The notes below the pieces were generated by a model. The model saw nothing but the letters and a program-made list of their open reading frames with translations. It was not told the origin of the DNA and searched no databases. The position numbers were made by a program, and so were the translations under genes. Below, in pieces: positions 4,598-53,220 of a stretch of 64,000 nucleotides of DNA (its first letter is position 1; every line of letters starts with the position of its first letter). Origin of the DNA: Tropicimonas isoalkanivorans (GTDB lineage Bacteria; Pseudomonadota; Alphaproteobacteria; Rhodobacterales; Rhodobacteraceae); NCBI RefSeq assembly GCF_900112335.1, contig NZ_FOLG01000004.1:124001-188000 (forward strand), read 5' to 3'.

Positions 4598-4690
4598 AGA
4601 CGTGGAAAGAGACAGCCAAGGCCTTTGGTCGGGCGCTGCCCTTTCGTCAGTGTGACAGCCCGGCGTCGGTACGGGTGGCAATGTCGGAAT

Positions 4691-4714
4691 GGGTATTTGT
4701 GGACCAACAAGAAG
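4691..4714 (+). repeat. Dispersed 22-nt motif A, variant next to cimA start
   Basis: GGGTATTTG...CCAACAAGAAG (24 bases here, two more than the other copies), ending 10 bases before the cimA ATG. The purine-rich end (AACAAGAAGAGG) overlaps the place where a ribosome binding site is expected. Other copies lie at 12627-12648, 25094-25115 and the paired 29877-29898/29918-29939. Confidence 0.5.
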
Positions 4715-4724
4715 AGGCCACCCA

Positions 4725-9953: not shown

Positions 9954-10029
9954 CCCGCCGGCTCTGGCCAATCCACGCTCCAGCCGGTAGGAGCCAGAAG
10001 GGAAGGCAGACAGCACGGAGCAGGCAATT

Positions 10030-36532: not shown

Positions 36533-38158
36533 ATGAAAAGACGGGACGCGGCCCTGCTGGGGGCCTTCCTTGTCCTGGTGTGGGCGGGGCTGAGCGCGGT
36601 GCTTTTGGCGAAGGGCGGGATCTACATCGCCAAGCACGACGGCGACACGGTCCACCTGTTCGACATCGTGTTACGGGAAGCCGCGGGGGAGTGGCCGCAT
36701 CTCGATTTCATGACCCCGCTGGGGTACTTGGCCACCGCCCCCATCGCCCTGTTCGTGGCGCTCGGATTTCCGGCGGGGATGGCATTTCTGCTGGGGCAGG
36801 TGCTGGTCGGTGCGATTCTGCTGCTCCCGGTCTGGTGGGTGGGGGTATCCCGGTTGCAGACCGCCTGGGCAATGGTCCTCGGTGCGATCTGCACGGTTCT
36901 GGCGCTGGCGATGGTGCATGGAGAGCCGGAGCCGTTGCTGTCGGTCTCAATGCATTACAACCGGTGGGCCTGGGCGCTGGCGTTCCCGGCGATCGCGACG
37001 GCGATCCTGGAGCCGGTGAACCGACGCTCGCAGGTGGCGGACGGGTTGGTGATAGGCCTTGCGGTGATGGCTCTCGCGCTCATCAAGGTCACCTATGTGG
37101 TTGCCTTCGCGCCAACGATCCTGGTGGCGCTGCTGTTGCGGCGCGCGTGGATGACGATTGGGGTGGCGTGCCTTGCGGCTCTGGCCGGTGTGGCCGTTCT
37201 GACGCTGGCGGCGGGCCCGGCATTCTGGCCGGCCTACCTGGAAGATCTGCTGACGGTCGCGACATCCGAAAGCCGCCGCCGGCCCGGACACAAGCTGACC
37301 GGCGTGGTGGCCGCGCCCGCCTATCTGGGCGGGTCGTTTGCGGCGGTGATCAGCGTCATCCTGCTTCGGCAGGCGGGACGGGCAAGGGAGGGGCTTTTGC
37401 TGCTGCTGCTGCTCCCCGGGTTTTTCTACGTGACCTATCAGAACTACGGCAACGACCCCCAGTGGCTCTATCTGCTGGCGGTGCTGCTGTTCGCGTTGCG
37501 TCCTCCGGCCGGCACCGTGAACGCGATGGGATGGGATATGCGGCAGGCAGTGTCGTTGGCCGGTGCCTCTGTCCTGATGCTCGGTCTGCCGTCCGCGTTG
37601 AACCTAACCTTCAGCCCGTTCCGCCACCTCGCGGTCGACGTGTCCAATCACGACGCGCTGTCCGAAACCTTGGCAGACGTTTTTGTGAAAGCTGAAACGA
37701 CTGTTCAGGCTTGGGGGATGGTCGAGCTACCTTTTGCGCGGGAGGAGGCGCCGGACGGCGGAGAGGACGCCGAAATTGCGATATTGAACGGCGAGATCCT
37801 TCCGAATTGCGAAGTTCTCAGTGGCCTCAGGGTGGCATACGCAGGCATCGCCAAGGACCTGGAGGCAGCCGGGTACAGAGGCGCGGCGATCTACAAGGCG
37901 GACCTGCTGTCTGGCCTCTGGCTATTCGGGGATTTCAAGCGGCTCAAAGGGGCGGCGCCTTGGCTGTACGACGGACTTCCGGGAATTGACGCGGCAGACT
38001 ATGTGGTGGTGCCGCTCTGCCCGGTGTACTCGAAAAGCCGTGCCGGCGTTCTCAAACATCTGGCGGAGGAGGGCTATGGGCTCACAGAGGTTCGCCGGAC
38101 GCCCAATTACGTGCTGCTAGAGCTTCAGGCGCCGGCGGCGGCTCCGAGCGAGAGGTAG
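36533..38158 (+). CDS. Polytopic membrane protein, possible GT-C type glycosyltransferase
   Basis: 541 aa with about 10-11 hydrophobic segments in residues 1-390 and a soluble C-terminal domain (about 400-541). The first periplasmic loop KHDGDTVHLFDIVLREAAGE carries paired acidic residues, as in PMT/ArnT-like GT-C enzymes. No close family is recognised. It faces the tad genes and its last 34 bases overlap the prepilin peptidase gene in antisense. A role in surface glycans is inferred from topology only. Confidence 0.65.
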   Translation: MKRRDAALLGAFLVLVWAGLSAVLLAKGGIYIAKHDGDTVHLFDIVLREAAGEWPHLDFMTPLGYLATAPIALFVALGFPAGMAFLLGQVLVGAILLLPVWWVGVSRLQTAWAMVLGAICTVLALAMVHGEPEPLLSVSMHYNRWAWALAFPAIATAILEPVNRRSQVADGLVIGLAVMALALIKVTYVVAFAPTILVALLLRRAWMTIGVACLAALAGVAVLTLAAGPAFWPAYLEDLLTVATSESRRRPGHKLTGVVAAPAYLGGSFAAVISVILLRQAGRAREGLLLLLLLPGFFYVTYQNYGNDPQWLYLLAVLLFALRPPAGTVNAMGWDMRQAVSLAGASVLMLGLPSALNLTFSPFRHLAVDVSNHDALSETLADVFVKAETTVQAWGMVELPFAREEAPDGGEDAEIAILNGEILPNCEVLSGLRVAYAGIAKDLEAAGYRGAAIYKADLLSGLWLFGDFKRLKGAAPWLYDGLPGIDAADYVVVPLCPVYSKSRAGVLKHLAEEGYGLTEVRRTPNYVLLELQAPAAAPSER

Positions 38159-38628
38159 ATGATCAGCAGGCTCCCCAGGGCGAGGCCCATCGGGAAATCC
38201 TTGCTGCGCTGCCAGCTCTCCCAGTGAGGCACGGCCGCGCGGACCGCTGGCATCGCCCGGGCAGCACGGTGACAGGCGAAGGCGACGATCACGAGGACCG
38301 CGAAGAGATAGCAGACGATGGCAAAGTCGCCGAGCGCGATGAAGGGCGCCATTGCGGCCGCGAATTTCGCGTCCCCCGCGCCGAGGAGGCCCGCCATGTT
38401 CATCAGGAACCCGATCACAAGGATGACCGCCAGGTGCAGCCAGCGCCAGGCGTAGACGTCGAGCGGCAGGACGAAGAGGCCCACGACGGCGTAAACCGCC
38501 ACGAGGGCGGCCACTGCCTTGTTGGGGATCTTCATAAAGGCCATGTCGTTCCAGGCCACCCACAGACCGATGGGAACCGCGAAGGGCAGGAACCACGTCG
38601 CGGCGCTGGCCGATATCTCCAGGCTCAT
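38125..38628 (-). CDS. cpaA: Prepilin peptidase (CpaA/TadV type)
   Basis: A 167-aa inner-membrane aspartyl protease with the GxGD motif in LLGAGDAKFAAAM (second aspartate) and an earlier aspartate in VAWNDMAFMKIPN. It would process the Flp pilins after their conserved Gly. The N-methylation domain of PilD is absent, as in the CpaA/TadV class. It lies 7 bases downstream of tadD and ends inside the convergent membrane-protein gene. Confidence 0.9.
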   Translation of the reverse strand: MSLEISASAATWFLPFAVPIGLWVAWNDMAFMKIPNKAVAALVAVYAVVGLFVLPLDVYAWRWLHLAVILVIGFLMNMAGLLGAGDAKFAAAMAPFIALGDFAIVCYLFAVLVIVAFACHRAARAMPAVRAAVPHWESWQRSKDFPMGLALGSLLIIYLSLGAAAGA

Positions 38629-38635
38629 CGTTGCC

Positions 38636-39487
38636 TTACTCGGCGGGCCCGAGCGCCTCGAGGCTGTTCACGGCCGCCTCGAAATGCTGCGGGTTGGTGT
38701 CGATCGCGTCCTGCAGAAGCGAGCGGCCGATGCTGACGTCGCCCTGCTTGATCGCGGCCAGCGCCATCGTGTGGAGCAGTTGCGAGCGTTCCACCTGCGT
38801 CATCTCGAAGATCGGCATCTGGTAGTTGCGCTGCGCGCCGCGGGCCAGGATCAGGTTGTTCTTGGCGGTGAAGAGGCGCGGATCGTACTGGATCGCCTCG
38901 CCGAAGAGCCGCTCGGCCTCCCGGTAGTCGCCGCGGCTGAGCTTGGAATAGCCCCAGTTGTTTAGCACGGAGGAGGGCTTGGTGGTCAGGCCGACGGCGG
39001 TTTCATAGAAGCTGTCGGACTTCTTCCACTCCTCGTTCTTGTCGGCGATCATGGCCTCGAGCTTGTAACGGTCGAACGTCTCGTAGGTCGGCGGCACGGC
39101 GTCGAGCACCTGCTCGGCCCGGTCCCAGTTGCCCGCGCGGATCAGCGCGTCGGCGTAGTCGACCTGGTCGGCGTTCGTCGCCTCGGGGTGCTTGACGACC
39201 TTGGACCAGGCGGCGGCGGCCTCGGTGTTGTGCTTGGCGCGCACGAGGCTCTTGGCGAGGTTACGCTGCAGGTCGATCCGGTCGGGATGCTCCGCCGAGG
39301 TCCGTTTGAAATAGTTCACCGCCTCGTTGGCGTCCGCGACCGACAGCATGATGTCGCTGAGGTCGTTGTCCTCGATGGCGTTGACGGACTGGATTGCCCG
39401 GTCGACTTCGCTTTCCTTGTTTTTTTCACAAGCGGAAAGGGCCACGGCGCTGCCCAGGCACAGCATGAGTAGGGTAGGTCGGCGCAT
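38636..39487 (-). CDS. tadD: TPR lipoprotein, TadD-like
   Basis: A 283-aa lipoprotein: signal LMLCLGSAVALSAC with the acylated Cys at about 19, then a series of TPR-like helices (ANEAVNYFKRTSAEHPDR; NLAKSLVRAKHNTEAAAAWS; LNNWGYSKLSRGDYREAERL). TadD acts as a pilotin-like factor for the CpaC secretin and is needed for Flp assembly. It starts 29 bases after the upstream TPR gene and shares its general design. Confidence 0.87.
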   Translation of the reverse strand: MRRPTLLMLCLGSAVALSACEKNKESEVDRAIQSVNAIEDNDLSDIMLSVADANEAVNYFKRTSAEHPDRIDLQRNLAKSLVRAKHNTEAAAAWSKVVKHPEATNADQVDYADALIRAGNWDRAEQVLDAVPPTYETFDRYKLEAMIADKNEEWKKSDSFYETAVGLTTKPSSVLNNWGYSKLSRGDYREAERLFGEAIQYDPRLFTAKNNLILARGAQRNYQMPIFEMTQVERSQLLHTMALAAIKQGDVSIGRSLLQDAIDTNPQHFEAAVNSLEALGPAE

Positions 39488-39515
39488 TTTTGCGTCCTTT
39501 ACTGCTCGATCTGCC

Positions 39516-40115
39516 TCAGGGTGTGCTCAGGATGCGGTATGTGCCGCTCCCCCGGCGCACCAACTCGAAGGTATTCGTGTTTTCTGCAGTGTAAGCAGGA
39601 TTCTGCAAATTTTCGAGCGCGGCGCTCAGGTTTTCGCGGATTTCGGCACTTTGGCCACTGTCGAGCGCGAAGGCGGTCTGGAAGACCCGCGCGGCCTCGC
39701 CGACTTCGCCGCGTTCCACGAGAACGACGCCGAGGTTGTTCCAGGCGGGCGCAAATGTCTCGTCCTCTTCGATGGCGCGGCGTAGGAGCTTCTCGGCCTG
39801 CCCGAGGCGCCCGAGCTTTAGGTTCGCGGAGCCGAGCGCGGAGAGCACGTCGACGTTCAATCCATAATCGGCGGCGGCCCGCAGGTATTCCTTCAGCGCG
39901 AGTTCGTACTCGCCGGCTTCCATCAGCCGGTGGCCGACGACGAGCCCGTCGACGGCGGTTTCCGTTCCCTGAACCCCCTTTGGCAGGGCCGGACCCTGGT
40001 TCAGCGGCTGCAGGCGCTCGTCGTCCTTGTCGCACGCAGACACGGCGAGGCAGAGCGCACAGACGAGGGCAGACAGGCGCTGCGTGGGGCGGCCCTGATG
40101 GCGATTAGCTGGCAT
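39516..40115 (-). CDS. TPR lipoprotein of the tad locus
   Basis: 199 aa. The signal ends with LCLAVSAC (lipobox), then TPR helices (LVVGHRLMEAGEYELALKEY; LSALGSANLKLGRLGQAEKL; PAWNNLGVVLVERGEVGEAARV). It is similar in layout to the next gene, and may be a TadD paralogue or a partner. The start at MPANRHQG gives a complete signal sequence; a longer frame adds non-family residues. Confidence 0.84.
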   Translation of the reverse strand: MPANRHQGRPTQRLSALVCALCLAVSACDKDDERLQPLNQGPALPKGVQGTETAVDGLVVGHRLMEAGEYELALKEYLRAAADYGLNVDVLSALGSANLKLGRLGQAEKLLRRAIEEDETFAPAWNNLGVVLVERGEVGEAARVFQTAFALDSGQSAEIRENLSAALENLQNPAYTAENTNTFELVRRGSGTYRILSTP

Positions 40116-40247
40116 CGTGGGACACTTTTGCCCGAACGCGTGGCGTCTCCAAGGGGGCTTCGGGAACGATTGCGCGATGAGGGCGAGGTGTGGCAAATGC
40201 GACGCCGCGCCCGGGTGCATGGGCGCGGGGGCGCGGTGCGTGTGACC

Positions 40248-41243
40248 TCAGAAGTTCGAGGCGGAGAGCGTCTGGACGATCTGGTAGATCGACGGGCCGA
40301 TGAGGATGATGAGCAGAGGCGGCACGGTGAACAGCATCGTCCCGAGCGTCAGCTTCGTCGGCAACACGTTGGCCTTTTCCTCGGCGCGCATCACCCGCTT
40401 GTCTCGCATCTCCGATGCATAGACCCGCAGCGCCTCGGCGATGGACGTGCCGAAGCTGGCGGACTGGATCAGGACCGTGACGAAGGAGGACACGTCCGGG
40501 ACGCCCGCGCGTTCGGCCATGTCCTTGAGAACCTGCACCTTCTCCTTGCCGGCCTTCATCTCGTTGGCGACCGTCTCGAATTCATCGGCCAAAGCGGGGA
40601 AGCCTGCGCGGAGTTCCTTGGAGACACGGACGATCGATTGCTCAAGCGACTGACCCGCCTCGACGCAGACGAGCATCATGTCCAGCGAGTCCGGGAAGCC
40701 GTTGGTGATCTCCTGCTGCCGGTTCTGTAGCCGCCGATTCACCCAGTATTTCGGAATGTAGTAACCGATGCAGCCCGGAATGAGGACCGACAGAACGAGG
40801 GCGTGAGTCGTGATCTCGCCGGTGGCGGAACTCACGATAGCGTAGAGGACCCCGAACAGGAGGAAGGTGATCCCGAGCGCGAACTGGGCGAAGTAGAACG
40901 TCCGCACCGCGGATTTGGAGCGATAGCCGGCCCGCAGCATCTTCATTCGGGCCGAGCTCATCTCTTCCTCGTCCTGCGGTTCGAGGAAGTTGGCGTACTT
41001 GTCCAGCTTGGCCGTCTTGCCGGTGTCGTAGCGCAGGGCTGCCTTGCCGGTCTTGTCGTTGCTCGCGGACCGGTGGTGCGAGGTCTGCGATTTCAGCTTG
41101 TCCAGGGGGTCCGCCTGGCGCTTGAGCAGGACCGGAAGCGTCAGCAAGATCAGCAGCAGGCCGAGCGCGCCGACGGCGTAGAGTGGGCCGAGTTCGCCGA
41201 AGCGATCGATCAGCCAGTCGTTGGCGGCGATGAGGAGTTCCAT
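40248..41243 (-). CDS. tadC: Tad inner-membrane platform protein TadC
   Basis: A 331-aa type II secretion F-domain protein. The F domain (about 170-300; FPDSLDMMLVCVEAGQSLEQ, then FASEMRD-like helices) is flanked by membrane segments near residues 15-35, 120-165 and 300-325. It forms the platform with TadB that drives pilin polymerisation by CpaF. It begins 9 bases after tadB. Confidence 0.92.
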   Translation of the reverse strand: MELLIAANDWLIDRFGELGPLYAVGALGLLLILLTLPVLLKRQADPLDKLKSQTSHHRSASNDKTGKAALRYDTGKTAKLDKYANFLEPQDEEEMSSARMKMLRAGYRSKSAVRTFYFAQFALGITFLLFGVLYAIVSSATGEITTHALVLSVLIPGCIGYYIPKYWVNRRLQNRQQEITNGFPDSLDMMLVCVEAGQSLEQSIVRVSKELRAGFPALADEFETVANEMKAGKEKVQVLKDMAERAGVPDVSSFVTVLIQSASFGTSIAEALRVYASEMRDKRVMRAEEKANVLPTKLTLGTMLFTVPPLLIILIGPSIYQIVQTLSASNF

Positions 41244-41252
41244 GGATGCCTC

Positions 41253-42221
41253 TCAGACCTTGATGTTGACCATGATCTTCATGAAGATCACATTGATGAC
41301 GAGGAACGTCCCCACGACGAGGCAGGCCGGGATGAACACGGCGGTGTCCTTCACGTCCGCGTAGTAGTCCGGCTGGATCACGTTGATGCCCACGAGGGCG
41401 AGAATGGGGAAGACCGACAGGAACATCCCAGACCACTTCGCCTCCGCCGTGATCGCCTTGACGCGGCGGAACAGCTTGAAGCGGGCCCGGATCACCTTGG
41501 CCAACCCGTCGAGGATTTCCGCCAGGTTACCGCCTGACTGCTGTTGGATCGTCACCGCCACCGCGAGGAAGCGAAGGTCCTGCATGTCCATCCGCTCGGC
41601 AAGCGACTTCAGGCTTTCGGATATGTCCCGTCCATAGGCGCTCTCGTCGGCGATAACGCCGAATTCGCTGCCCAGCGGGTCCGGTACTTCGCGGGCCACG
41701 ATGTTGACGGCGGAGGAGAAGGGATGGCCGACGCGCAGGCTGCGCACCATCAGCTCCACCGCATCCGGAAGCTGCTCCTCGATCAGGCCGAGGCGCTTCT
41801 TGGCCTTGTTGTTGACCCAGACGTAGACGCCGCCGACACCCATGGCCAGCGCCACCACGACGCGCACCGCGAGGCCCGCCTCCGTCGCCACGGTCAGACC
41901 GACGAAGGCCACGCCCGACAGCACGCCCATGACCATCATGAGCTGGTTGGGTGAGAAGGCGATGTTGGCCTTCTGTGCCTTGTCCGCCAGGATCGAGTAG
42001 AGCGGAATGCCCCGGGAATTGACGTGCTGGCTCATCTCCTTGCGGAGCTGTTCGAGCACTTCTTCGCGCCCGCCGCCCTTTTCCAGGAGTTCGAGCCGGC
42101 GGTTGACCTTGTTGTTCAGGCTGATCGATTTGCCGAACGCGGTGAGGTAGAGCCCCTCGACCAGGACCAGGACGGCAACGAAGATGAGTCCGTAGATAAG
42201 CGGCTCGGCCGAGATCTGCAT
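41253..42221 (-). CDS. tadB: Tad inner-membrane platform protein TadB
   Basis: A 322-aa paralogue of TadC with the F domain LPDAVELMVRSLRVGHPFSS, DISESLKSLAERMD and GNLAEILDGLAKVIRAR. Membrane segments are at about 5-25, 105-150 and 265-320. It starts 6 bases after the cpaF stop, so cpaF-tadB-tadC are tightly coupled. Confidence 0.93.
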   Translation of the reverse strand: MQISAEPLIYGLIFVAVLVLVEGLYLTAFGKSISLNNKVNRRLELLEKGGGREEVLEQLRKEMSQHVNSRGIPLYSILADKAQKANIAFSPNQLMMVMGVLSGVAFVGLTVATEAGLAVRVVVALAMGVGGVYVWVNNKAKKRLGLIEEQLPDAVELMVRSLRVGHPFSSAVNIVAREVPDPLGSEFGVIADESAYGRDISESLKSLAERMDMQDLRFLAVAVTIQQQSGGNLAEILDGLAKVIRARFKLFRRVKAITAEAKWSGMFLSVFPILALVGINVIQPDYYADVKDTAVFIPACLVVGTFLVINVIFMKIMVNIKV

Positions 42222-42227
42222 GTGCGT

Positions 42228-43679
<1,452 letters not shown>

Positions 43680-43709
43680 TCTGACTCTGGCCTCAGTAGG
43701 GGAATGTCG

Positions 43710-44957
43710 TCAGCCTGCCTCGACCTCGCTCGCGATAAGTTCGTGCAGCGAAGCGGCGACCTTGGCGATTTCCTTGCGGAGCGGGTTCTTTCCCGCGTTT
43801 TCGGACAGGGGCAGGCCGTGGTCGCAGGCCTGGGAAATCTGTTTCTGCCCGTCGGGGAGCATCAGTTCGATGTCGATATCGAGGCTCTCGGCCATGCGCT
43901 TCACGCGGGCCTTGCCTTGCAGGTCCGTGTAACGCGGCGAGCGGTTCAGGGCGAACCGCATCTTCTCGTAGGGCAGATCCTCGCTTTTCAGCAGGCGCAC
44001 GAACCGCAACGCGTTCTGGGCCGACCGCATGTCGAGTTCCATCACTGCGAAATAGACGTTCGCGTGACCCAGGACCGTTTCCGTCCAGGACACGAGGGTC
44101 TTGGGCATGTCGATCACGACCACGTCGAAATTGGCGCGGGCCATGTCGAGCAGGGCGGCAATATCGTCCGGGCCGACCAGATCCAAGGGCAGCATGTCCG
44201 CGGGGGCGGTGAGCACGTGGAGCCGCTCGCCGAACACCTGCATCGCCTGCAGGAAGCTCTCCGTGTCCATCGTCGGGATGTCGGACAGCAGCTCGTAGAC
44301 GAGGTCGCGGCGCGGCAGGTCGAGGTAGGTCGAGGTTGAGCCGGTCTGGAAATCGAGATCGAGCAGGCAGACGCTGGGCCCGTTCTTCTTGTCCTTGATG
44401 GCCAGTTCCCAGGCCAGGTTAACCGCGAAGGTGGTCGCGCCGACGCCGCCCGCAAGCCCGTGCACCGCGAAAATAGCACCTTCGCGGCCGGTCTGGGTGC
44501 CGTGTGCGAAGGATGCCGGATCGCCGGGTGGCATCATGGGGCGTGGATCGGGCACGCGCAGGCGGGCGATGGCCTCGCGCAACGCGCCTTCGGGCAGGGG
44601 ATAGGGCAGGAAGTCCGTCGCGCCGGATCGCAGAAGGCGGTGGAGAACGGAGGGGCTCACGTCTTCGGCGATCACGATGACCTTGACCCCGCGATTGCCG
44701 GCCATGGTGATCAGTTCGCCGATCCGGACCAGGTTCCCCTCGTCCTGGGCGTTCATCGCGATGGCGAGAAACTCCAGCGCGTCCGCATCGGGTTGTTCGA
44801 GAAAGGCGATGGCATCGTCGAAGGAAAGGTCCCCCCAGCCCTCGCCAAGCTCCGTTTCCATATCCTCAATCAGCAGATCGAAGTCCTGGACGTCGCGGCT
44901 GACAGTGCAGGCGACCACGGGGGCGGGCTCAGTTTGCAATGCCACACTACTTGTCAT
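43710..44957 (-). CDS. cpaE: Pilus-localisation ATPase CpaE/TadZ
   Basis: A 415-aa protein with an N-terminal receiver-like domain (about 15-135) lacking a typical phosphorylation site. The ParA/MinD-like ATPase domain (about 150-400) carries the deviant Walker A HGLAGGVGATTFAVNLAW and the switch VVVIDMPKTLVSWT. TadZ proteins direct the Tad machine to a pole. I chose MTSSVALQ as the start, after AAGGGCGAGAG; an ATG six codons earlier is possible. Confidence 0.9.
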   Translation of the reverse strand: MTSSVALQTEPAPVVACTVSRDVQDFDLLIEDMETELGEGWGDLSFDDAIAFLEQPDADALEFLAIAMNAQDEGNLVRIGELITMAGNRGVKVIVIAEDVSPSVLHRLLRSGATDFLPYPLPEGALREAIARLRVPDPRPMMPPGDPASFAHGTQTGREGAIFAVHGLAGGVGATTFAVNLAWELAIKDKKNGPSVCLLDLDFQTGSTSTYLDLPRRDLVYELLSDIPTMDTESFLQAMQVFGERLHVLTAPADMLPLDLVGPDDIAALLDMARANFDVVVIDMPKTLVSWTETVLGHANVYFAVMELDMRSAQNALRFVRLLKSEDLPYEKMRFALNRSPRYTDLQGKARVKRMAESLDIDIELMLPDGQKQISQACDHGLPLSENAGKNPLRKEIAKVAASLHELIASEVEAG

Positions 44958-45267
44958 ACGTCTCTCGCCCTTCATCAGAAAACGCGCCCGGTCCGGCTCT
45001 CGCAAAGGCCGTTTGGTTCGCGAAAAGGCCCCGGCAGCGTCGCTCGTGCCTGCGTACCGCACGCACTACTCCTGAGCGTCTGTTTGTTAGGAAAACCGGG
45101 CGAAAGTGAGGCCACATTGTCGAATTTGTGCGAATATGACCCCCTGTGGTCGGGGAACGGAGCTTCTGTTTCTGAGCGCGAACAAGTGCGGGACGGGGCG
45201 CCAAAACGCCGACGGCGCCGCCTTTTCAGACGACGCCGTGACCGTAGGTAGGTTGGTGGTGGTGGTT
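44958..45267. other. 310-base gap between cpaE and the small lipoprotein
   Basis: This gap breaks the otherwise tight tad cluster. It contains GGCGCC repeats (around 45197-45224) that could form a stem, and no open frame with family resemblance. In some tad loci an extra OmpA-like gene lies between the secretin and cpaE genes, so this could be the place of a lost gene; I see no remnant. It may instead hold a promoter for cpaE. Confidence 0.35.
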
Positions 45268-45582
45268 CTAATTGCTGATCCGCGCCGACCGGATGATGGC
45301 TGGCGGAGTTTCCGTCGCACTGTCCACGGCCTCCCGGTAGGCGAAGAGAGCGTACTTGCCGTCCTGCCGGCGACCCGGGCAAGCCGCGGAAAGCGGCTGG
45401 CCGTATTTCTCGATGGTCACCGGGGTGACCTTCCGGCAGGTCATGGCGAGCTGATTGTTCATCGTCGCGTTGCCGAATTCGCCCTGGTCGAGGAAAGCGC
45501 CGGCTTCCTCGTTCCAGTACGAGACGCAACCGGACAGGACGAGCGCGGTGCCGAGGGCGGCAAGGGTGAGGGGGGTTTTCAT
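45268..45582 (-). CDS. Small lipoprotein of the tad locus (CpaD-position)
   Basis: 104 aa: signal LTLAALGTALVLSGC with lipobox, then a soluble region with two further Cys (AMTCRKVTP, SAACPGRR) that may pair. It starts 5 bases after the secretin gene stop, where CpaD/RcpB-like accessory proteins sit, but is much shorter than CpaD and shows no clear CpaD motif. GGAGTGAGAG precedes the ATG. The longer open frame is antisense-like sequence and is rejected. Confidence 0.72.
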   Translation of the reverse strand: MKTPLTLAALGTALVLSGCVSYWNEEAGAFLDQGEFGNATMNNQLAMTCRKVTPVTIEKYGQPLSAACPGRRQDGKYALFAYREAVDSATETPPAIIRSARISN

Positions 45583-45587
45583 CTCTC

Positions 45588-46991
45588 TCACTCCATCACG
45601 TAGCCGTAGGAACCGGTGAAGTCCTGCCGGGCTACCTCGCCGGCACCGCCGGTGATGGGCCGACTGGTCACCGCCGTGATGCCCCGCATGAACAGCTGGT
45701 TCTCGGAGGGAGGGCGGACACGGTCGGTCGGCAGTGCGAGGGCATCGCCCCGTGTCGGCGTCACGAGGTGCGCCGTGACGATGATGACCAGTTCGGACTG
45801 CTCGCGCTGGTAGTCCGCGCTGCGGAACAGCGCGCCGAGCACCGGCACATCGCCGAGCCACGGAACCTGGGTCGAGAGGTCGGCGAAGTCGTCCTGCAGC
45901 AGGCCGGCGATGGCGAAGCTTTCGCCGTCACGCAGTTCCACGGTGCTCTGGGCGTTGCGGGTGGAGAAACCGGAAATCGAGAAGCCCGCGTCGGTGATGC
46001 CGATCGACGTGTCGATCTGGCTGACCTCGGCCTTCAGGTTCAGGTTGATGTTCTCTCCGATGACCCGCGGCGTCATGTTCAGCACGATACCGAAGGGTTT
46101 GTAGAAGACGGTAACATTCCCGTCGTCGTCCCGCGAGGGCACCGGGTACTCGCCGCCCGCCAGGAAGCTGGCCGCCTGGCCGGAGAGCGCGGTGAGGTTC
46201 GGTTCCGCAAGGGTCCTGACGAAGCCTTTGGATTCAAGGGCTTCGATGAGAACTGCGAATTCGACGTCGCCGTAGCCGAAGCCGACTTGTAGCGCACCCG
46301 AGGTGTCGGCGTCGAGGATCACGCCATCGGACGTGTCGCCGAGGTAGGCGCCGGTGCCGCCTTGGTAGCCGATGCTGCCGTTGTCGGCGGTGCCCTTGAG
46401 CGAGGTGGAGAAGCCGAGCGATTTGCGAACGGACCGGCTCATCTCGGCGAACCGGACCTTCATCATCACCTGTTGCGTGCCGCCGACCATCATCAGGTTG
46501 GACACCCGATCCGGGGCATAGCGATTCGCAAGGTCGATCGCCCGGTCGATGGCCTGGGCGCTGGTGACGGTCCCCGACAGCACAATGCCGTCGTTGGCGG
46601 GCCGGACCTCGATGGCCTCTCCGGGCAGAACCTCCCGGAGCCGCTCCTTCAATTCGCCGACATCGGCGGTCACCTGGACCTCGACGTTGGTAATCAGCGA
46701 TCCGTCCGGCGCGAGAAGCGTCAGCGTCGTCCGGCCCGGCGCCTTGCCGAGGACATAGATCGACTGCTCCGAGAGCGTCGAGATGTCAGCAATGCCGGGG
46801 TTTGCGATGGAAAGTTCGGCGAAAGCGATGTCGCTTTCGACCACTACGGCCCTGTTCATGGGGACCTTCAGGGCACGTTGGACCGTGCCGCCAGAGACCC
46901 GCAGGGTCTCGGCCATTGCCGGGGGAACATAGGCTGCACTGGCAAATGCAAGGCCGAGAAGACCCGCTCGCACAAGCGTCTTGACTGTCAT
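45588..46991 (-). CDS. cpaC: Tad secretin CpaC/RcpA
   Basis: A 467-aa outer-membrane channel: signal GLLGLAFASAAYVPPAMA, N-terminal domain (about 25-110; VVVESDIAFAELSIANPGI), a BON-like segment (about 115-180; EVRPANDGIVLSGTVTS), then the secretin domain (about 220-420) with GFGYGDVEFAVLIEALESKG, LTALSGQAASFLAGGEYPVP and VELRDGESFAIAGLLQDD. It forms the exit pore for the Flp pilus, helped by the lipoproteins downstream. Confidence 0.95.
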   Translation of the reverse strand: MTVKTLVRAGLLGLAFASAAYVPPAMAETLRVSGGTVQRALKVPMNRAVVVESDIAFAELSIANPGIADISTLSEQSIYVLGKAPGRTTLTLLAPDGSLITNVEVQVTADVGELKERLREVLPGEAIEVRPANDGIVLSGTVTSAQAIDRAIDLANRYAPDRVSNLMMVGGTQQVMMKVRFAEMSRSVRKSLGFSTSLKGTADNGSIGYQGGTGAYLGDTSDGVILDADTSGALQVGFGYGDVEFAVLIEALESKGFVRTLAEPNLTALSGQAASFLAGGEYPVPSRDDDGNVTVFYKPFGIVLNMTPRVIGENINLNLKAEVSQIDTSIGITDAGFSISGFSTRNAQSTVELRDGESFAIAGLLQDDFADLSTQVPWLGDVPVLGALFRSADYQREQSELVIIVTAHLVTPTRGDALALPTDRVRPPSENQLFMRGITAVTSRPITGGAGEVARQDFTGSYGYVME

Positions 46992-47195
46992 GGTGACCCT
47001 GCCTCTCGATCACGTCAATTAAGCGGGTCTTCCGCCCGCATCTCGGGCCACAGTGCATTCGATTGCAATTTATTGCAAGAATCAGGGCGTTGTGGAGGGA
47101 ATCTTATGTAGTGAACCCGCAACAGTTTTCAGACTGTCGCGGGCTCACATAAGCAGGGCAGAGGGGTGCGGCGCGCTGTTCCGGCGCCCGGGCCG

Positions 47196-48080
47196 TCAGT
47201 TGACGCAGGGGATTTCCTGTTCGATCACCTCGGCACCGCGGCGGATCTTGGTCGTGCAGACCTGCTTTTGCAGGATCACCTCGGGCGCCTTGTCCACCAG
47301 GCCCAGCAGTGCTTTCTGATCCACCTGGCTCACTTGCGCCACGGTATCGTCCTTCGCGCCGACGAGCGACAGGGTCAGCCGGCCAGTGGACTGCGCCTGC
47401 GCCAGGGCCGCGACCTGCTGCGGCGACGCTTCGATCGTCACGGTGCGCGCGATGACGGGAGACACACGTGCCGTGTCCGAAATCTGGTCCACCGCGATCA
47501 GCTTGACGTTGGTCTCGATCAGCTTGGTGATGTCGCCGTAATTCTGCGAGTTGGTCGAGGCATTGCCCGTCCAGTAGACGTCCACCCGGTCGCCCGGCCG
47601 CAGGAAGCCGGACACGCCGGAGGTCACGTCGACGCGGATCGCGAAGGCCCGCATGCCCTTGCTGAGCCGCGACGTGATCCCGGCATCCTCGCCCGGCTCC
47701 GTCACCTTGGAGGCCAGCAGCGGCTCGAAGGTTTTCATCGAATCGATCACGAAGCGATCCGGCATGCCGGTGGGAAACAGCAGGTTGGCGTCCCGCACGT
47801 CGGTATCCTCGAACTCGGACACGTCGCGCACGAAGGCGCCGGCGGGCACGCTGTCCTTCTGCCAGCGCACCCACTTTACATCTTCCTTCGTGAGTTCCTG
47901 GCCATACTCCTTGTCCGACAACATCACGACGACGTCCACCATGGGCGGCGCATCTCTCTGCGCGGCCAGCAAGGCATCCCGTTCCGCGCTCATGTTCGAC
48001 ATGAAGTTTTGCGCCGTATAGACAGCGAAACCGGCAAGCGCGATGCCGACGACAAGGACGATTGCAAAGATGATCCGCAT
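47196..48080 (-). CDS. cpaB: Pilus assembly protein CpaB/RcpC
   Basis: 294 aa with one N-terminal membrane helix (IIFAIVLVVGIALAGFAVY). A SAF domain (about 45-120; YGQELTKEDVKWVRW) and RcpC-type C-terminal region (KGMRAFAIRVDVTSGVSGFL; PGDRVDVYWTG) follow. It is thought to interact with the secretin at the periplasmic side. A C-terminal tail has two Cys (KQVCTTKIRRG, IPCVN). It precedes cpaC by 204 bases. Confidence 0.92.
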   Translation of the reverse strand: MRIIFAIVLVVGIALAGFAVYTAQNFMSNMSAERDALLAAQRDAPPMVDVVVMLSDKEYGQELTKEDVKWVRWQKDSVPAGAFVRDVSEFEDTDVRDANLLFPTGMPDRFVIDSMKTFEPLLASKVTEPGEDAGITSRLSKGMRAFAIRVDVTSGVSGFLRPGDRVDVYWTGNASTNSQNYGDITKLIETNVKLIAVDQISDTARVSPVIARTVTIEASPQQVAALAQAQSTGRLTLSLVGAKDDTVAQVSQVDQKALLGLVDKAPEVILQKQVCTTKIRRGAEVIEQEIPCVN

Positions 48081-48272: not shown

Positions 48273-48455
48273 TCACTCGGAAATCTGCGAGTCCGACACC
48301 ACCGGCGGCACTTGGCTTGCCTGGTGGCCATCGCCGCCGAGAAACATGCTGGTGGCCCCCAGGGCCAGGGCAACGGCACCGGCCGTGAGCACGATCCAGT
48401 CCAGTGTCACCGATCCAGTGTTCTCGCCGGGCAGATCTTCGGTCGATCGGACCAT
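48273..48455 (-). CDS. Second, divergent Flp-type pilin
   Basis: 60 aa: MVRSTEDLPGENTGSVTLDW, then a hydrophobic stretch IVLTAGAVALALGATSMFLGG and a polar tail. Alignment by eye with the 48691-48885 pilin keeps the S/AVTxDWxVLTA core and hydrophobic spacing, but the N-terminal leader is shorter and the Glu-Tyr-type motif is absent in both. A strong ribosome site (AGGAG, 7-base spacing) supports it. It may be a minor pilin or a degraded copy. Confidence 0.68.
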   Translation of the reverse strand: MVRSTEDLPGENTGSVTLDWIVLTAGAVALALGATSMFLGGDGHQASQVPPVVSDSQISE

Positions 48456-48690
48456 TACTGAGCTCCTGTTCCTTGGTGGTGGCTGACGGCGGTGGGCCCC
48501 TCGCGGCCGGGGCGTCTTACGTGTCGCGCAGCAATGTGACGAAATCGGGGGCGAGAGCAGGACGAAGACCTGACTTTTGAAAAATGTGCCCCGGGTCGCT
48601 GGCTTTTTTAAAAATGCTTGTGAAAACGCGAAAGTCGCGCCCACCAAATGGACGCGACTCTCGATCCGAACTGTCCGGGTGTTCGGACTA

Positions 48691-48885
48691 TCAGAAGGTC
48701 GTCTTGATCGTCTGGGCGCTGAGGCTGGTGTCGATCTTTTTGGAGACGTTTTCCACGCCACCGGAAACGGCTGCCAGCACGGCGATGCCGAGGCCAACGA
48801 TGGCGGCGGTCAGCACGACCCAGTCAACGGTCACGGCGCCGTCTTCGTCGTTGCGGAAGGTCTTGATCAGATTGAAGAGTTTCAT
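48691..48885 (-). CDS. flp: Flp/Fap-type major pilin
   Basis: 64 aa: a charged leader (MKLFNLIKTFRNDEDGA), then GAVTVDWVVLTAAIVGLGI, a hydrophobic helix as in Flp pilins, and a Lys/Asp tail (VENVSKKIDTSLSAQTI). Cleavage by CpaA is expected after the leader Gly, near DEDG/A. CGGAG lies 8 bases before the ATG. Its position at the 5' end of the locus and next to a second pilin supports the major-subunit role. Confidence 0.85.
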   Translation of the reverse strand: MKLFNLIKTFRNDEDGAVTVDWVVLTAAIVGLGIAVLAAVSGGVENVSKKIDTSLSAQTIKTTF

Positions 48886-49219: not shown

Positions 49220-50134
49220 ATGGCTTTCATTTCCCGTGCCGGCGGATGGGCGGCGATCATTGCGGCGGTGGCGGTCTGCGCGCCCGCGGCGGCCGAGGGC
49301 ATTCCTCCGGAGAAGGATTTCACCTTCAAACGGGTCAAGGTCGGCGCGCCGACGGCCGTGGGGCGGCGTATTCTCGTGCAGATCGACCCGCAGGAACAGG
49401 CGCGCCTGCTCGAACTCAACCCCGCCATTCCGCCGAAGCCCGACGTGCCTTGGCCGACGGAGCCCGGCGCTGAGGGGGCGCCCGGTGCGGAGGCAGATGG
49501 CGCGCCAGCAACGGTCGCGTCCTCCTACGACTGGTATTGGGACCTGATTTCGCCCAACCTGGCGGATGGCTCCTCGGGACGCATGGAGACCGCGCTGGCG
49601 GCGCTGCGGAACGGGCCGAACGGAACAGCGGTGCGCGCACCGCGGCTGGCCGCGTTGCAGGCCATCGCCGACGAGCACGGGGCCGCCATCCTGAAGGCCA
49701 CCGTCAACACGAAGGTCTCGCCTGCGCTCGCACTGGCGGTGATCGGCGTGGAAAGCGCGGGGCGGGCGGATGCCGTCAGTTCGGCCGGGGCAAGCGGACT
49801 GATGCAGCTCATGCCGGCCACCGCCGACCGATTCGGCGTGGCAGACCGCGCTGACCCGACTCAGAACATCGAGGGGGGCGTGGCCTATCTCGACTGGCTG
49901 TTGAAGCACTTCCAACGCGATCCGCTCCTGGCGCTGGCCGGCTACAACGCCGGCGAGAACGCGGTGCGCAAGCACCACGGCATCCCGCCCTACGCGGAGA
50001 CGCGCGACTACGTGCCGAAGGTTCTGGCGGCGTGGAACGTGGCCAAGGGGCTGTGCCTGTCGCCGCCGCAGCTCGTCTCCGACGGTTGCGTCTTCCGCAC
50101 CAGCCAGCAGACGGCTGCGCGCGTGGTGGACTGA
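49220..50134 (+). CDS. Lytic transglycosylase (SLT domain)
   Basis: 304 aa: signal region WAAIIAAVAVCAPAAAEG, a linker (about 60-95), and a C-terminal SLT domain (about 135-290). The catalytic Glu is in VIGVESAGRADAVSSAGA, and the GLMQLMPATADRFGV and AGYNAGENAVRKHHGI motifs are intact. It cleaves peptidoglycan; its place beside the pilus locus suggests it may open the wall for the machine, though it is divergent from it. Confidence 0.9.
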   Translation: MAFISRAGGWAAIIAAVAVCAPAAAEGIPPEKDFTFKRVKVGAPTAVGRRILVQIDPQEQARLLELNPAIPPKPDVPWPTEPGAEGAPGAEADGAPATVASSYDWYWDLISPNLADGSSGRMETALAALRNGPNGTAVRAPRLAALQAIADEHGAAILKATVNTKVSPALALAVIGVESAGRADAVSSAGASGLMQLMPATADRFGVADRADPTQNIEGGVAYLDWLLKHFQRDPLLALAGYNAGENAVRKHHGIPPYAETRDYVPKVLAAWNVAKGLCLSPPQLVSDGCVFRTSQQTAARVVD

Positions 50135-50172: not shown

Positions 50173-50922
50173 TCAGATCGACATCTTCTTGAAGATCGGT
50201 TCGGGAATGGCCCGGATGATGGTCATGATGTAGCGCCAGAAGAACGGCGTATAGATAATGTTCTTGCGCTTCCGCTCGGCCTTCAGAATGGCGTCCGCCA
50301 CGGCCTCGGGCGGGGCGACGAGGAACATTCCGTCCAGCCCCCAGGTCATCGCCGTGTCGACGAAGCCCGGTTTCACTGTAACCGCGTGCGCGCCGGACCG
50401 GGTGAGGCGGTTGCGCAAGCCCGACATATAGGTGTGAAACCCGGCCTTGGCGGCGCCGTAGACGTAGTTTCCCACACGCCCCCTATCACCCGCGACGGAG
50501 CCGACCCCGACGATGGTGCCGCTGCCCCGCTCCTCCAGCATCGGCGCCAGAGCATGAATGAGGCGGGCGGGGCCGGTGAAGCTGTCGGTCACGACGCTGT
50601 CGATGAGGGACGGGTCCGAATCGATCAGGGCCTGCTCCGGCATGGAGCCGACGAAGACGGCGGCGTTGAGCGTGCCCTCGGCGGCGGCCATACGGGAGAG
50701 AATGGGCTCGAACGTGGCCGAATCGCGGGCGTCGAACCGTATCGGCTCCGCCCAGGCCGCGCCCCGATGCCGGCAGTCGGCGGCGGTGGCCTCCAGGTCG
50801 TCCATGTCGCGGCCGGCGAGCAGCAGGGCCGCCCCTCGCGCCGCCAGTTTGCGCGAGAGCGCACGGGCCATGGACGAGGTCGCCCCCAGGATCAACCAGC
50901 ATTCCTGTCGTGTCTCGGTCAT
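50173..50922 (-). CDS. SDR oxidoreductase, DprE2-like
   Basis: 249 aa. The N-terminal NAD(P) site reads LILGATSSMARALSRKLAARG, as in DprE2-type SDRs that have TS(S)xxA in place of TGxxxGxG. The catalytic Tyr and Lys are in YVYGAAKAGFHTY (YxxxK). DprE2 reduces decaprenyl-phospho-2-keto-ribose to the arabinose form. It overlaps the DprE1-like gene upstream by 4 bases (ATGA), strongly linking the two. The C-terminus has a hydrophobic stretch (FFWRYIMTIIRAIP) that may hold it at the membrane. Confidence 0.82.
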   Translation of the reverse strand: MTETRQECWLILGATSSMARALSRKLAARGAALLLAGRDMDDLEATAADCRHRGAAWAEPIRFDARDSATFEPILSRMAAAEGTLNAAVFVGSMPEQALIDSDPSLIDSVVTDSFTGPARLIHALAPMLEERGSGTIVGVGSVAGDRGRVGNYVYGAAKAGFHTYMSGLRNRLTRSGAHAVTVKPGFVDTAMTWGLDGMFLVAPPEAVADAILKAERKRKNIIYTPFFWRYIMTIIRAIPEPIFKKMSI

Positions 50923-52226
50923 TGAATCGTCCTCAACGCCAGCCGCCGAACGAGGTCGGTCTCGTACGCACCTTCCGGGTCTCGCGCGTTGACAAGTTCC
51001 GCCCAGGCCACGCGGTCGGGATACATGCGGTCCATCTGCTCCGGCTGCGCAAAGGCGTCCTTGGCGAGGTAGACACGGCCACCGGCCTCGTCGGCCATCG
51101 CGATCAGGCGGCGGATCATGCCGGGGGCTTCCTCGCGGGCCGGAAAATCGATGGCGAGCGTATAGCCCTCTGCCGGGAAGGACATCATGCCGGCCCGGCC
51201 GGGACCCATGCGCTTGAGCACTGCGAGAGGCGAGGCGAGGCCGGAGGCCGCCACCGCCGCCAGCATGTCGCGCAGGACGTCGCGCTCTGCGAGCGGCACC
51301 ACGCACTGGAACTGGTGGAAGCCGCGTTTGCCGTAAAGGCGGTTCCAGTCGTAAATCTTGTCGAGGGGGAAGAAGAAATCCTCCATCGGCTTGACCACCG
51401 TGCGGCCGCGCTCGGGAATTCGCCGGTAATAGGCCGCGTTGAACCCGCGCACGACGGTTCCGGCCAGAGCAAAGGGTGGCGCGTCGAAAGGCACGGTCCG
51501 CCCCCGTTTTGCCGGCGGGACAAGGCCGGCGCCGTTTTCCGCCTCTTCCAGGATGCCGCGCCCAAGGCTTGCTCCCGACGCCGTCGCGTCAATCCATCCG
51601 ACGGTGTAGGGCGCCTCCGAGACGTCCAGCAGGGAGAGATAGGTGTCCAGATCCGGCACGCGCCGTTCGGTGACCATCATCACCGGGCCCTTGATCCGCT
51701 GCATTTGCAGGCGCGCGGACCCGATGGGGCCGGTCTGCCCAATGCCGCCGACCGTCGCTTCGAAGAGCGGCTCCCCGGGGTGCACCTCGCTGCGGCCGTC
51801 CGGCTGGTGCAGGGTGAGGGAGGCGACATGCTGGCCGAAACTGCCCGCGTGGTGGTGGTTCTTGCCGTGGACGTCCATTCCGATCGCGCCGCCCACGGTG
51901 GCAAAGCCTGTGCCGGGAAGGACGGTGGGGAGCCAGCCGCGCGGGGCGAACAGGCGGACGATCTCGCTCAACTGGCAGCCGGCTTCGGCATCGAGCACGC
52001 CGGTGTCCGGATCGAAGCTCAGAATGCGGTCCAGCCGATCGGTCAGCACAGTGCGGCCGTGGCTGTTGAGGCAGGCGTCGGCATAGGACCGGCGCTGGCC
52101 GATGGCGGGGCAGGGGGAGTCGGCGGCGATCCGGTCCAGCGCGGAGGCCCGCTCCGGCCGGGCAAATTCGCCACGGGTCCGGTAGACCCGGCCCCATCCC
52201 CAGGCGTCAGTGGTTTTCCAGGTCAT
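50919..52226 (-). CDS. FAD-binding oxidoreductase, DprE1-like
   Basis: 435 aa. An N-terminal FAD domain (about 10-190) with RRSYADACLN, PGTGFATVGGAIGMDVHGKN and HHAGSFGQHV, the VGGAIGxDxHGKNHH pattern of DprE1-type oxidases. The C-terminal cap carries the substrate site (RGFNAAYYRRIPE; FHQFQCVVPL). DprE1 oxidises the 2'-OH of polyprenyl-phospho-ribose, the first half of an epimerisation to arabinose. The UPF0104-type gene overlaps its start by 20 bases, and the SDR gene its stop by 4. Confidence 0.85.
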   Translation of the reverse strand: MTWKTTDAWGWGRVYRTRGEFARPERASALDRIAADSPCPAIGQRRSYADACLNSHGRTVLTDRLDRILSFDPDTGVLDAEAGCQLSEIVRLFAPRGWLPTVLPGTGFATVGGAIGMDVHGKNHHHAGSFGQHVASLTLHQPDGRSEVHPGEPLFEATVGGIGQTGPIGSARLQMQRIKGPVMMVTERRVPDLDTYLSLLDVSEAPYTVGWIDATASGASLGRGILEEAENGAGLVPPAKRGRTVPFDAPPFALAGTVVRGFNAAYYRRIPERGRTVVKPMEDFFFPLDKIYDWNRLYGKRGFHQFQCVVPLAERDVLRDMLAAVAASGLASPLAVLKRMGPGRAGMMSFPAEGYTLAIDFPAREEAPGMIRRLIAMADEAGGRVYLAKDAFAQPEQMDRMYPDRVAWAELVNARDPEGAYETDLVRRLALRTIQ

Positions 52227-53220
52227 GCGCAGCCCTTTTCGACTGCCGTTCCGCCACGGGGAACAGCAGGAGCCCCAAGAGGATCGCGAACCAGAGGGTT
52301 GTCAACCGGATCACGGCGGTCGTGGGGACGGAAATTTCCAGTGGGACGCCCTGCAACTGCAGGAGCGCGATCATGGCTGCCTCCGCCCCGCCCATGCCGC
52401 CGGGGGCGCCGGTCAGTCCGCCGGCCAGGGTGGAGAAGACGAAGATGCCGATGGCGGTCCAAAGGCCCACATCCGCGCCCATCCAGCTGAGGAGGAGGAA
52501 GAACGCGACACCCTCCGCCAGCCAACCGGCCGCGCCCAGTGTCAGCGCGGCGGTCAGGGCGCCGGGGCTGGAGAAGGCGCGCAGTGCGCGGGCGGATTGG
52601 CGGAGCCGGCCGAAGGTGCGGGGCCACCGCCCGAGGGTCCGGTAGGCGCGCGTCACGCACCACGCGAGCAGGCGGGGGTGCGTGGCGACGTATGCCGCCG
52701 CCAGGGCCAGCAGGAGGACGGGGAGTGCCCCGGTGAGACCGATGGTGGAAAAGGTGACGGCGATGCCGAGCAGGATCGCCATGGCCGCGAGGTCGGCGGC
52801 GCGGTCCATCAGGACGAGTGGCGCGGTGCGCTCCGGCTCCCAGCCGGTCTCCCGCCGAATCCAGCGCAGACGGATCAGTTCGCCGACCCGGCCCGGCGTA
52901 ACGGTCATGGCAAACCCGCCGACGAAGTGGCGCAGGCTCTGAGACATGGTCGTGCGCAGGCCGAGCGTGCGGGTGAAGAGGTGCCAGCGGACAGCGCGCA
53001 ACAGGTAATTGACGAGCGACAACATCAGCAGGAGGCCGACCTGCGCCACTGTCAGAACGGCGAGCTGTGCAAGGCTTTCGTGCCATCCCGTCGCCGCGGC
53101 GAGGGTGCCGAGGCCAAGCAGGAACAGGCCCAGAAGCCCCGCCGCGATCACGCCGTCGCGCAGCCGGCTCGGTGGAGCGGCTGTAGCTGCGGGGGGTGTC
53201 GTGCTCGTTGCCTGTGTCAT
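52207..53220 (-). CDS. Lysylphosphatidylglycerol synthase TM-domain/UPF0104-type membrane protein
   Basis: 337 aa with about 8-9 membrane segments and the family motifs LRAVRWHLFTRTLGL, FVGGFAMTVTPGRVGELIRL and LTGAPGGMGGAEAAMIALL. Stand-alone members of this group (without the MprF catalytic domain) are thought to move lipids. Sharing an operon with the DprE1/DprE2-like genes suggests a lipid-linked sugar substrate. I start at the second ATG (MTQATSTT); a start 11 codons earlier is possible. Confidence 0.85.
   Translation of the reverse strand: MTQATSTTPPAATAAPPSRLRDGVIAAGLLGLFLLGLGTLAAATGWHESLAQLAVLTVAQVGLLLMLSLVNYLLRAVRWHLFTRTLGLRTTMSQSLRHFVGGFAMTVTPGRVGELIRLRWIRRETGWEPERTAPLVLMDRAADLAAMAILLGIAVTFSTIGLTGALPVLLLALAAAYVATHPRLLAWCVTRAYRTLGRWPRTFGRLRQSARALRAFSSPGALTAALTLGAAGWLAEGVAFFLLLSWMGADVGLWTAIGIFVFSTLAGGLTGAPGGMGGAEAAMIALLQLQGVPLEISVPTTAVIRLTTLWFAILLGLLLFPVAERQSKRAAHDLENH

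Follow-up and report, generated by a model that had tools for sequence, protein, structure and literature searches.

Which lipid-linked sugar does a bacterium prepare with a DprE1-like oxidase, a DprE2-like reductase and a stand-alone UPF0104 membrane protein encoded together, and what finally carries that sugar? The question arises from three overlapping minus-strand genes, here called the trio, in 64,000 nucleotides of Tropicimonas isoalkanivorans DNA (contig NZ_FOLG01000004.1, positions 124,001 to 188,000; the window, numbered from its first letter). Our analysis points to a three-component pathway that is complete although its genes are dispersed in the genome, and that would attach arabinofuranose outside the cytoplasm in connection with the Tad (Flp) pilus, a reading to which we give a probability of roughly 0.64. 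Under this scheme, the oxidase and the reductase would invert C2 of polyprenyl-phosphate ribose to yield polyprenyl-phosphate-D-arabinofuranose, the UPF0104 protein would flip this product to the periplasmic side, a role taken by GtrA-type proteins in other operons, and a membrane glycosyltransferase with a GT-C (glycosyltransferase type C) fold, encoded in the tad locus of the same window, would transfer D-arabinofuranose to a component of the Tad pilus, most likely the Flp pilin or pilins. Donor synthesis and epimerisation are very probable, and the use of the trio's lipid-linked donor by the tad GT-C is only slightly less so; the flippase role of UPF0104 is likely, and a Tad-pilus component is the probable acceptor, held with a little less confidence.

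A preliminary description of the trio had proposed that a polyprenyl-linked pentose is epimerised and that the membrane protein moves it. This core is upheld by protein family, fold, gene order and co-occurrence, from which the chemistry itself is inferred. Judged from sequence and models, the genes for synthase, flippase and GT-C all appear to be present in the genome. What is new relative to that description is that all parts are in the genome, that the transferase lies in the Tad locus, the description having drawn no link between the trio and this pilus, and that UPF0104 stands where GtrA stands elsewhere.

The proposed epimerase pair and its synthase

The three genes occupy positions 50173-53220, and their starts, coordinates and overlaps (20 bases between the UPF0104 and DprE1-like genes, 4 bases between the latter and the gene for the short-chain dehydrogenase/reductase, SDR) are exactly as first described, as are the motifs VGGAIGMDVHGKNHH in the flavin adenine dinucleotide (FAD) protein and LGATSSMA and YGAAK in the SDR. 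Pfam assigns LPG_synthase_TM at 144 bits (cut-off 33.4), FAD_binding_4 at 59.9 bits and adh_short at 95.2 bits. In a PDB sequence search, solved DprE1 structures match the oxidase over its whole length (residues 8-431) at 1.6e-63, and its nine closest solved relatives are all DprE1. Clustering with other sugar oxidases, which the preliminary description had named among the outcomes that would overturn its reading, is not seen, the best sugar-lactone oxidase model scoring only 25.9 bits. The active-site stretches align with mycobacterial DprE1, including the HGKNHH loop that binds FAD and the lysine of the AKD motif, which aligns with the catalytic lysine (Lys 418) of Mycobacterium tuberculosis DprE1; the corresponding H120 and K389 are the same in all 26 type-matched DprE1-like proteins that were aligned. 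Alanine 358 is likewise invariant in these 26 proteins, at a position where the mycobacterial enzyme has a cysteine (GWNVCVDFP), the known target of benzothiazinones.

The distribution of these genes was followed in 120 genomes of the same family, Rhodobacteraceae, with the window's genome included. DprE1 of the window's type (type 1) is present in 32 of them, in 31 at full length with 51-100% identity and in one (G069) as a fragment; a second type, at 40-46% identity, occurs in 7 of the 120, and 19 genomes whose matches were all weak (E 7e-7 to 9e-4) were left uncounted. A second set consists of 80 loci among those listed in a scan of named genomes, which tblastn with our queries divides into 23 of type 1 and 57 others; type-1 loci were compared in 23 survey loci and 23 named-genome loci, four of the latter duplicating survey genomes. 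Named species with the trio include Aliiroseovarius halocynthiae (L168) and Rhodovulum kholense (L175). The SDR gene adjoins DprE1 in 18 of 18 loci (L026-L043), and homologues of the three proteins occur together across the relatives, as the preliminary description had anticipated.

That description had noted the absence of a UbiA-type synthase and of a glycosyltransferase from the neighbourhood and had concluded that parts must lie elsewhere or that the substrate differs. For the synthase this proved right: the genome encodes three UbiA proteins, and in the one from contig C38 a HAD domain is fused to the UbiA domain, both being detected. For the glycosyltransferase it did not, the proposed enzyme being encoded within the window. 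The UbiA part of the C38 protein matches the structure of Rv3806c at 9e-33 (the other HAD-UbiA type does so at 1e-27), and the cut-off of the polyprenyl-phosphoribose synthase model NF006088 (351 bits) is passed both by the C38 copy (591 bits) and by the copy of locus L030 (505 bits). A UbiA-type synthase in the same genomes, which had been suggested as a check, is found at E <= 1e-25 in 30 of the 32 type-1 genomes, in 7/7 type-2 genomes and in 10 of the remaining 81.

In many relatives this synthase belongs to the locus itself. It adjoins the trio in 17 of the 23 survey type-1 loci and in 13 of the 23 type-1 loci among the named-genome loci listed, lying on the Tad-locus side, convergent to the trio and, where visible, between the genes for the SDR and an SLT transglycosylase; in the window, the gap between these two genes is only 38 bases. 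Counting copies beside the trio or adjoining tad genes, as assigned by identity and position, 25 of the 32 type-1 genomes have a local HAD-UbiA. Unlinked copies are found in 5 of the 7 genomes that lack a local copy (the window's genome, G007, G063, G024 and G116) versus 3 of the 25 that have one (G114, G070 and G080; Fisher 0.005). When 39 HAD-UbiA proteins are placed on a tree, 20 of the local copies group in a single clade (support 100/100) and the eight unlinked copies are scattered, a pattern that suggests that other copies have taken the place of the local synthase. The HAD-UbiA of G044, a genome devoid of type-1 DprE1, is nested in the local-copy clade. In the window's genome, a sucrose-phosphorylase-like gene (L004, 10260-12059; 194.8 bits, below the cut-off of 334.4) follows the unlinked HAD-UbiA after 21 bases.

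The proposed glycosyltransferase of the Tad locus

The AlphaFold model of the proposed transferase (predicted local distance difference test score, pLDDT, 92.8) retrieves with Foldseek ArnT (9.6e-5), AftA (1.0e-3), ALG3 (2.4e-3) and AftD (5.1e-3), enzymes that use polyprenyl- or dolichyl-phosphate sugars. No Pfam family was assigned to it. Aspartate 38, the acidic residue of the first loop after helix 1, and H41 are invariant in 33 of 33 homologues, and residue 36 is glutamate in at least 90% of homologues and aspartate in the window protein. The gene is oriented opposite to the Tad genes (Table 1).

Table 1. Features of the window discussed in the text
Feature	Position	Strand	Basis and remarks
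AAA-ATPase-like gene (working label TadZlike), flank of the GT-C gene	35091..36401	-	only sub-threshold AAA matches; conserved neighbour
GT-C-fold membrane glycosyltransferase, proposed periplasmic arabinofuranosyltransferase	36533..38158	+	541 residues; fold match
Prepilin-peptidase-like gene (TadV), other flank of the GT-C gene	38125..38628	-	PF01478 23.9 bits, cut-off 26.5
Tad pilus locus	38636..48080	-	Pfam; NCBIfam for CpaB; lipoprotein-like genes by eye
Second Flp-like pilin, candidate acceptor	48273..48455	-	60 residues; by sequence reading
Flp-type pilin, candidate acceptor	48691..48885	-	64 residues, MKLFNLIKTF...AVTVDWVVLTAA...; by sequence reading; similar pilins in relatives
SLT transglycosylase gene	49220..50134	+	Pfam; at the place where many relatives have HAD-UbiA
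DprE2-like SDR reductase	50173..50922	-	ATG start, 249 residues
DprE1-like FAD oxidase (predicted polyprenyl-phosphoryl-ribose 2'-oxidase)	50919..52226	-	ATG start, 435 residues
Membrane protein of UPF0104/PF03706 (LPG_synthase_TM), proposed to flip polyprenyl-phosphate-arabinofuranose	52207..53220	-	ATG start, 337 residues

This gene and the trio are distributed jointly. The GT-C is present in 36 of the 120 survey genomes, that is, in 32/32 with type-1 DprE1 versus 4/88 others (Fisher 4e-25, not corrected for ancestry). Two of the four exceptions have related donor genes: G019 has an SDR and a HAD-UbiA gene at a contig start, and in G112 the donor genes form another operon, HAD-UbiA-GtrA-DprE1-SDR, with no UPF0104 of the window's type, so that the GT-C is retained there while the donor set differs. 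The gene stands beside the same ATPase-like gene in 34 of the 36 genomes, and 31 of these have TadV as its other neighbour. Conversely, it is found in 0/20 tad loci from genomes that lack the type-1 trio (four of them type 2; in 16 of the 20, the two flanks can both be seen). When tad-locus proteins from 47 genomes, 27 with the GT-C (including G112 and G019) and 20 without, are placed on a tree, its presence requires 7 changes, at least 6 of them forced by well-supported branches, versus 15.4 for shuffled labels; the tree was built by a quick method, G069 was left out, and G101 and G093 sit on long branches. On this tree, the GT-C has been gained or lost repeatedly while the surrounding tad genes stay. 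Because the bulk of the tad locus usually lies between the trio and the GT-C, mere proximity hardly accounts for their repeated joint presence; recombination that swapped the region in one piece is a less probable though conceivable source.

The family seems close to restricted to Rhodobacteraceae, since among 289 genomes sampled across the class matches at 1e-10 occur in three, namely the window's genome and two genomes of another family, in which they are partial. G057 encodes two members of this GT-C family; next to the additional one (L114, 5473-7119), no tad gene was detected. Another glycosyltransferase of the window's genome, a PMT_2 GT-C at C33, was considered as a partner of the trio and set aside because an adjacent DPMS-like GT2, named by eye, suggests a hexose donor.

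Weighing flippase, acceptor and sugar

Several findings weigh against the proposed pathway. For the transferase, neither a PDB sequence search nor a profile search with the GT-C alignment gave a meaningful match, and template modelling scores (TM-scores) against ArnT and AftA are about 0.4, so that its assignment is a fold call. The two remaining exceptions to the joint distribution, G102 (33% identity) and G113 (31%), have a relative of the GT-C away from tad and no trio. For the synthase, two of the 32 type-1 genomes, G079 and G117, have no HAD-UbiA at 1e-25. The gene order of G117 fits one deletion in which HAD-UbiA and most tad genes were lost and the SDR was truncated, and decay of the pathway after tad loss was rejected there on this ground; its SDR gene is joined to a tad lipoprotein gene (L116, 4023-5237), and HAD-UbiA, SLT, secretin and motor genes are gone. 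The adverse findings on flippase, acceptor and epimerase are given below with the explanations that they favour.

The assignment of UPF0104 as flippase builds on fold and gene neighbourhood. The six best PDB fold matches of its AlphaFold model (pLDDT 86.8) are all MprF, the best at E 5.6e-5, no other fold being matched convincingly, and flippase activity has been proposed earlier for all of COG0392 (UPF0104), as stated in the portion of PMC5898192 drawn on here. The gene is present in 22/23 survey type-1 loci and in 21 of the 23 type-1 loci among the named-genome loci listed. GtrA (PF04138) was not found in the window's genome, where other SMR families were not searched. Among the 57 non-type-1 loci listed, tblastn finds GtrA beside DprE1 in 13 (for example L203, L211, L221, L223, L230 and L232), a UPF0104 match in 8 and neither in 36; of the 13 GtrA loci among the 80 loci listed, none has a UPF0104 match. 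L223 belongs to Pararhodobacter oceanensis and has a HAD-UbiA-GtrA-DprE operon. PF03706 was confirmed in seven of the eight UPF0104-match loci (L180, L183, L184, L185, L190, L195 and L204), the match of the eighth, L206, lying 5 kb off. In the six besides L190, which is described next, stand-alone PF03706 genes adjoin UbiA and/or DprE1 genes, as in L195 (Paraperlucidibaca), which has the order DprE1, SDR, HAD phosphatase, unassigned gene, UbiA, PF03706 and PMT_2 GT-C, and this neighbourhood recurs in alpha-, beta- and gammaproteobacterial records.

Locus L190, from a Leptolyngbya metagenome-assembled genome, encodes a 541-residue protein (4491-6116) that combines HAD (134.7 bits) with PF03706 (156.5 bits), directly after the DprE1 gene and near a UbiA gene; by its domains, this protein fuses the phosphatase step to the proposed flippase.

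It is nonetheless conceivable, if unlikely, that UPF0104 is not the flippase, or not the sole one, and serves as a separate lipid transporter or helper while another protein flips the lipid-linked sugar. In three genomes with the trio, UPF0104 of the window's type is broken or missing: in G036 (L050, 9052-9526) the gene is reduced to its two ends beside DprE1, although the GT-C is retained, and the genomes of Pseudoruegeria (L162) and Celeribacter neptunius (L173), whose trio loci lack it before position 10001, yielded no such gene anywhere. No small SMR-type gene replacing it is evident among the open reading frames of L050, L162 and L173, so either another protein does the flipping in these genomes or the pathway is broken there. 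The UPF0104 gene is thus not always kept, which lowers the odds of a flippase role, and the window's genome encodes two PF03706 proteins, the second at C28. Against a mere helper function stand the recurrence of PF03706 beside UbiA and DprE1 in three proteobacterial classes, its absence from the GtrA loci, the HAD fusion of L190, the MprF fold and the lack of GtrA in the window's genome, and we continue to regard UPF0104 as the likely flippase.

A second explanation, also unlikely and slightly more so, accepts that arabinofuranose is made and exported as proposed and holds that the GT-C decorates a lipopolysaccharide or capsule polysaccharide or a lipid, its placement in tad being historical. 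The prototype three-component pentofuranose systems modify O-antigens, according to the sections of PMC11127046 available here, and the tad locus could be a landing site. The tad secretin is present in 100 of the 120 survey genomes, which makes co-occurrence of tad and trio weak evidence. A C-terminal pilin motif, chosen after looking, was found in 17/24 genomes with the trio versus 1/20 without (L078 was dropped from this first set, and no pilin was found in L028 and L036); as an acceptor signature it failed on held-out genomes, with 4/14 versus 3/19 (19 trio and 20 non-trio loci were given, five and one of them without a pilin). Serine plus threonine make up 0.291 of the last 12 pilin residues in trio genomes versus 0.191 in the others in the first set, and 0.301 versus 0.187 in the held-out set (p 0.024, not corrected for ancestry), a mild excess.

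With the motif lost, the acceptor assignment rests on gene position and on the precedent of TfpW, described below. Position speaks against a purely historical placement: the GT-C keeps its site between the same two tad-region genes, comes and goes while the surrounding genes stay, and is flanked in the window by tad genes as well as by the AAA-like gene and one resembling OmpA. We therefore favour a Tad-pilus component as the acceptor of D-arabinofuranose. Many Flp pilins carry an EY pair. A first scan of pilins for the EY motif found none, because pilins of the window's type read DW; the two of the window (48273-48885) read VDW and LDW, and a plain EY search misses such pilins. The Tad locus comprises a lipoprotein-like gene, a TPR gene, TadC, TadB, CpaF, a CpaE-like gene, a small lipoprotein-like gene, a secretin and CpaB.

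That the DprE-like names mislead, and that the product is a different pentose, with the configuration of ribose or xylose, or the substrate some other lipid-linked sugar, is very improbable: both epimerase proteins fall short of the curated NCBIfam cut-offs (NF053785 for DprE1, 340 bits over the whole length of the oxidase against 500; NF053786 for DprE2, 165 bits for the SDR against 250), which makes them DprE-like by relationship rather than members by cut-off, yet the solved relatives and active-site stretches of the oxidase are those of DprE1, and an oxidase and reductase pair with an Rv3806c-like synthase fits C2 inversion. The SDR scores 262.3 bits with PRK07102 (NF005489), just under the cut-off of 267.

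Related systems and implications

One close parallel is the arabinosylation of type IVa pilins in Pseudomonas Pa5196/PA7 (TfpW, PSPA7_6245-6251), where, in the portion of PMC12369383 used here, D-arabinofuranose is added to pilins by the GT-C enzyme TfpW and the donor genes lie in a separate island. Shared features are donor genes kept together, a GT-C encoded with pilus genes and D-arabinofuranose as the proposed sugar; by contrast, the genome studied here has a Tad (type IVc) pilus, a UPF0104 gene in the operon and an unlinked synthase. With the three-component pentofuranose systems of Citrobacter youngae O1/O2 (GT136), as far as the consulted part of PMC11127046 presents them, the genome shares a HAD-UbiA-type synthase, an epimerase, a proposed flippase and a GT-C; DprE1/E2 occur in such systems according to the same text. 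It differs in having UPF0104 in place of a small four-helix (GtrA/SMR) transporter, a proposed pilus acceptor and scattered genes. The proposed pathway is a variant of these systems, one that probably serves Tad pili.

With the mycobacterial decaprenylphosphoryl-arabinose (DPA) pathway (Rv3806c, Rv3807c, DprE1/DprE2, Rv3789, Emb/Aft), the proposed pathway shares a homologous synthase and DprE1, and its GT-C model resembles AftA and AftD; here, however, the HAD phosphatase is fused to the synthase, the proposed flippase is another protein and no arabinan polymer is implied. UPF0104 has PF03706 and the MprF fold in common with the MprF flippase domain and COG0392, and differs in standing alone and in being linked to polyprenyl-phosphate-pentose genes. 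In the titles and abstract openings of the open-licence literature, we found no description of UPF0104 linked with DprE1 or polyprenyl-phosphate-pentose genes; nor did the open-licence literature, as far as its searchable text goes and including term checks of PMC4471445, PMC8383342 and PMC13234629, yield a paper joining Tad/Flp with arabinose or with a tad glycosyltransferase.

Taken together, the sequence evidence suggests that this bacterium decorates its Tad pili with arabinose. If true, glycosylation would extend to the Tad pili, widespread machines of adhesion and surface sensing, of a large bacterial family, and the route would be one described until now chiefly for mycobacterial walls, O-antigens and a single group of type IVa pili. 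A broader extrapolation, on which we are evenly divided, is that many Rhodobacteraceae arabinofuranosylate their Tad pili through a new tad-inserted GT-C family and that UPF0104 is a second, unrelated class of pentose flippase that replaces GtrA in proteobacteria (and is HAD-fused in the cyanobacterial record). In Pseudomonas, pilin arabinose confers resistance to pilus-specific phages, as reported in the part of PMC12369383 seen here, and the on/off pattern among the relatives of T. isoalkanivorans could therefore reflect phage pressure. Direct evidence for the flippases of three-component pentofuranose systems is lacking, according to the consulted portion of PMC11127046, and with UPF0104 there is now a candidate, open to testing, for a further class of flippases of polyprenyl-phosphate sugars, relatives differing naturally in having UPF0104 or GtrA.

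Other arrangements of the same parts were seen in the survey. In G118 (L067, 8956-12863), HAD-UbiA, PF03706 and PMT_2 genes stand in a row with no DprE1 match, which makes this a candidate for a system that handles ribofuranose and uses UPF0104 as its flippase. In G044 (L072, 8197-11267), HAD-UbiA lies near two further genes, one for GtrA (PF04138, 39.3 bits), the other for an NAD-dependent epimerase (PF01370, 132.7 bits), and G087 (L073) has, by eye, a similar arrangement; these two are perhaps a xylofuranose-type system.

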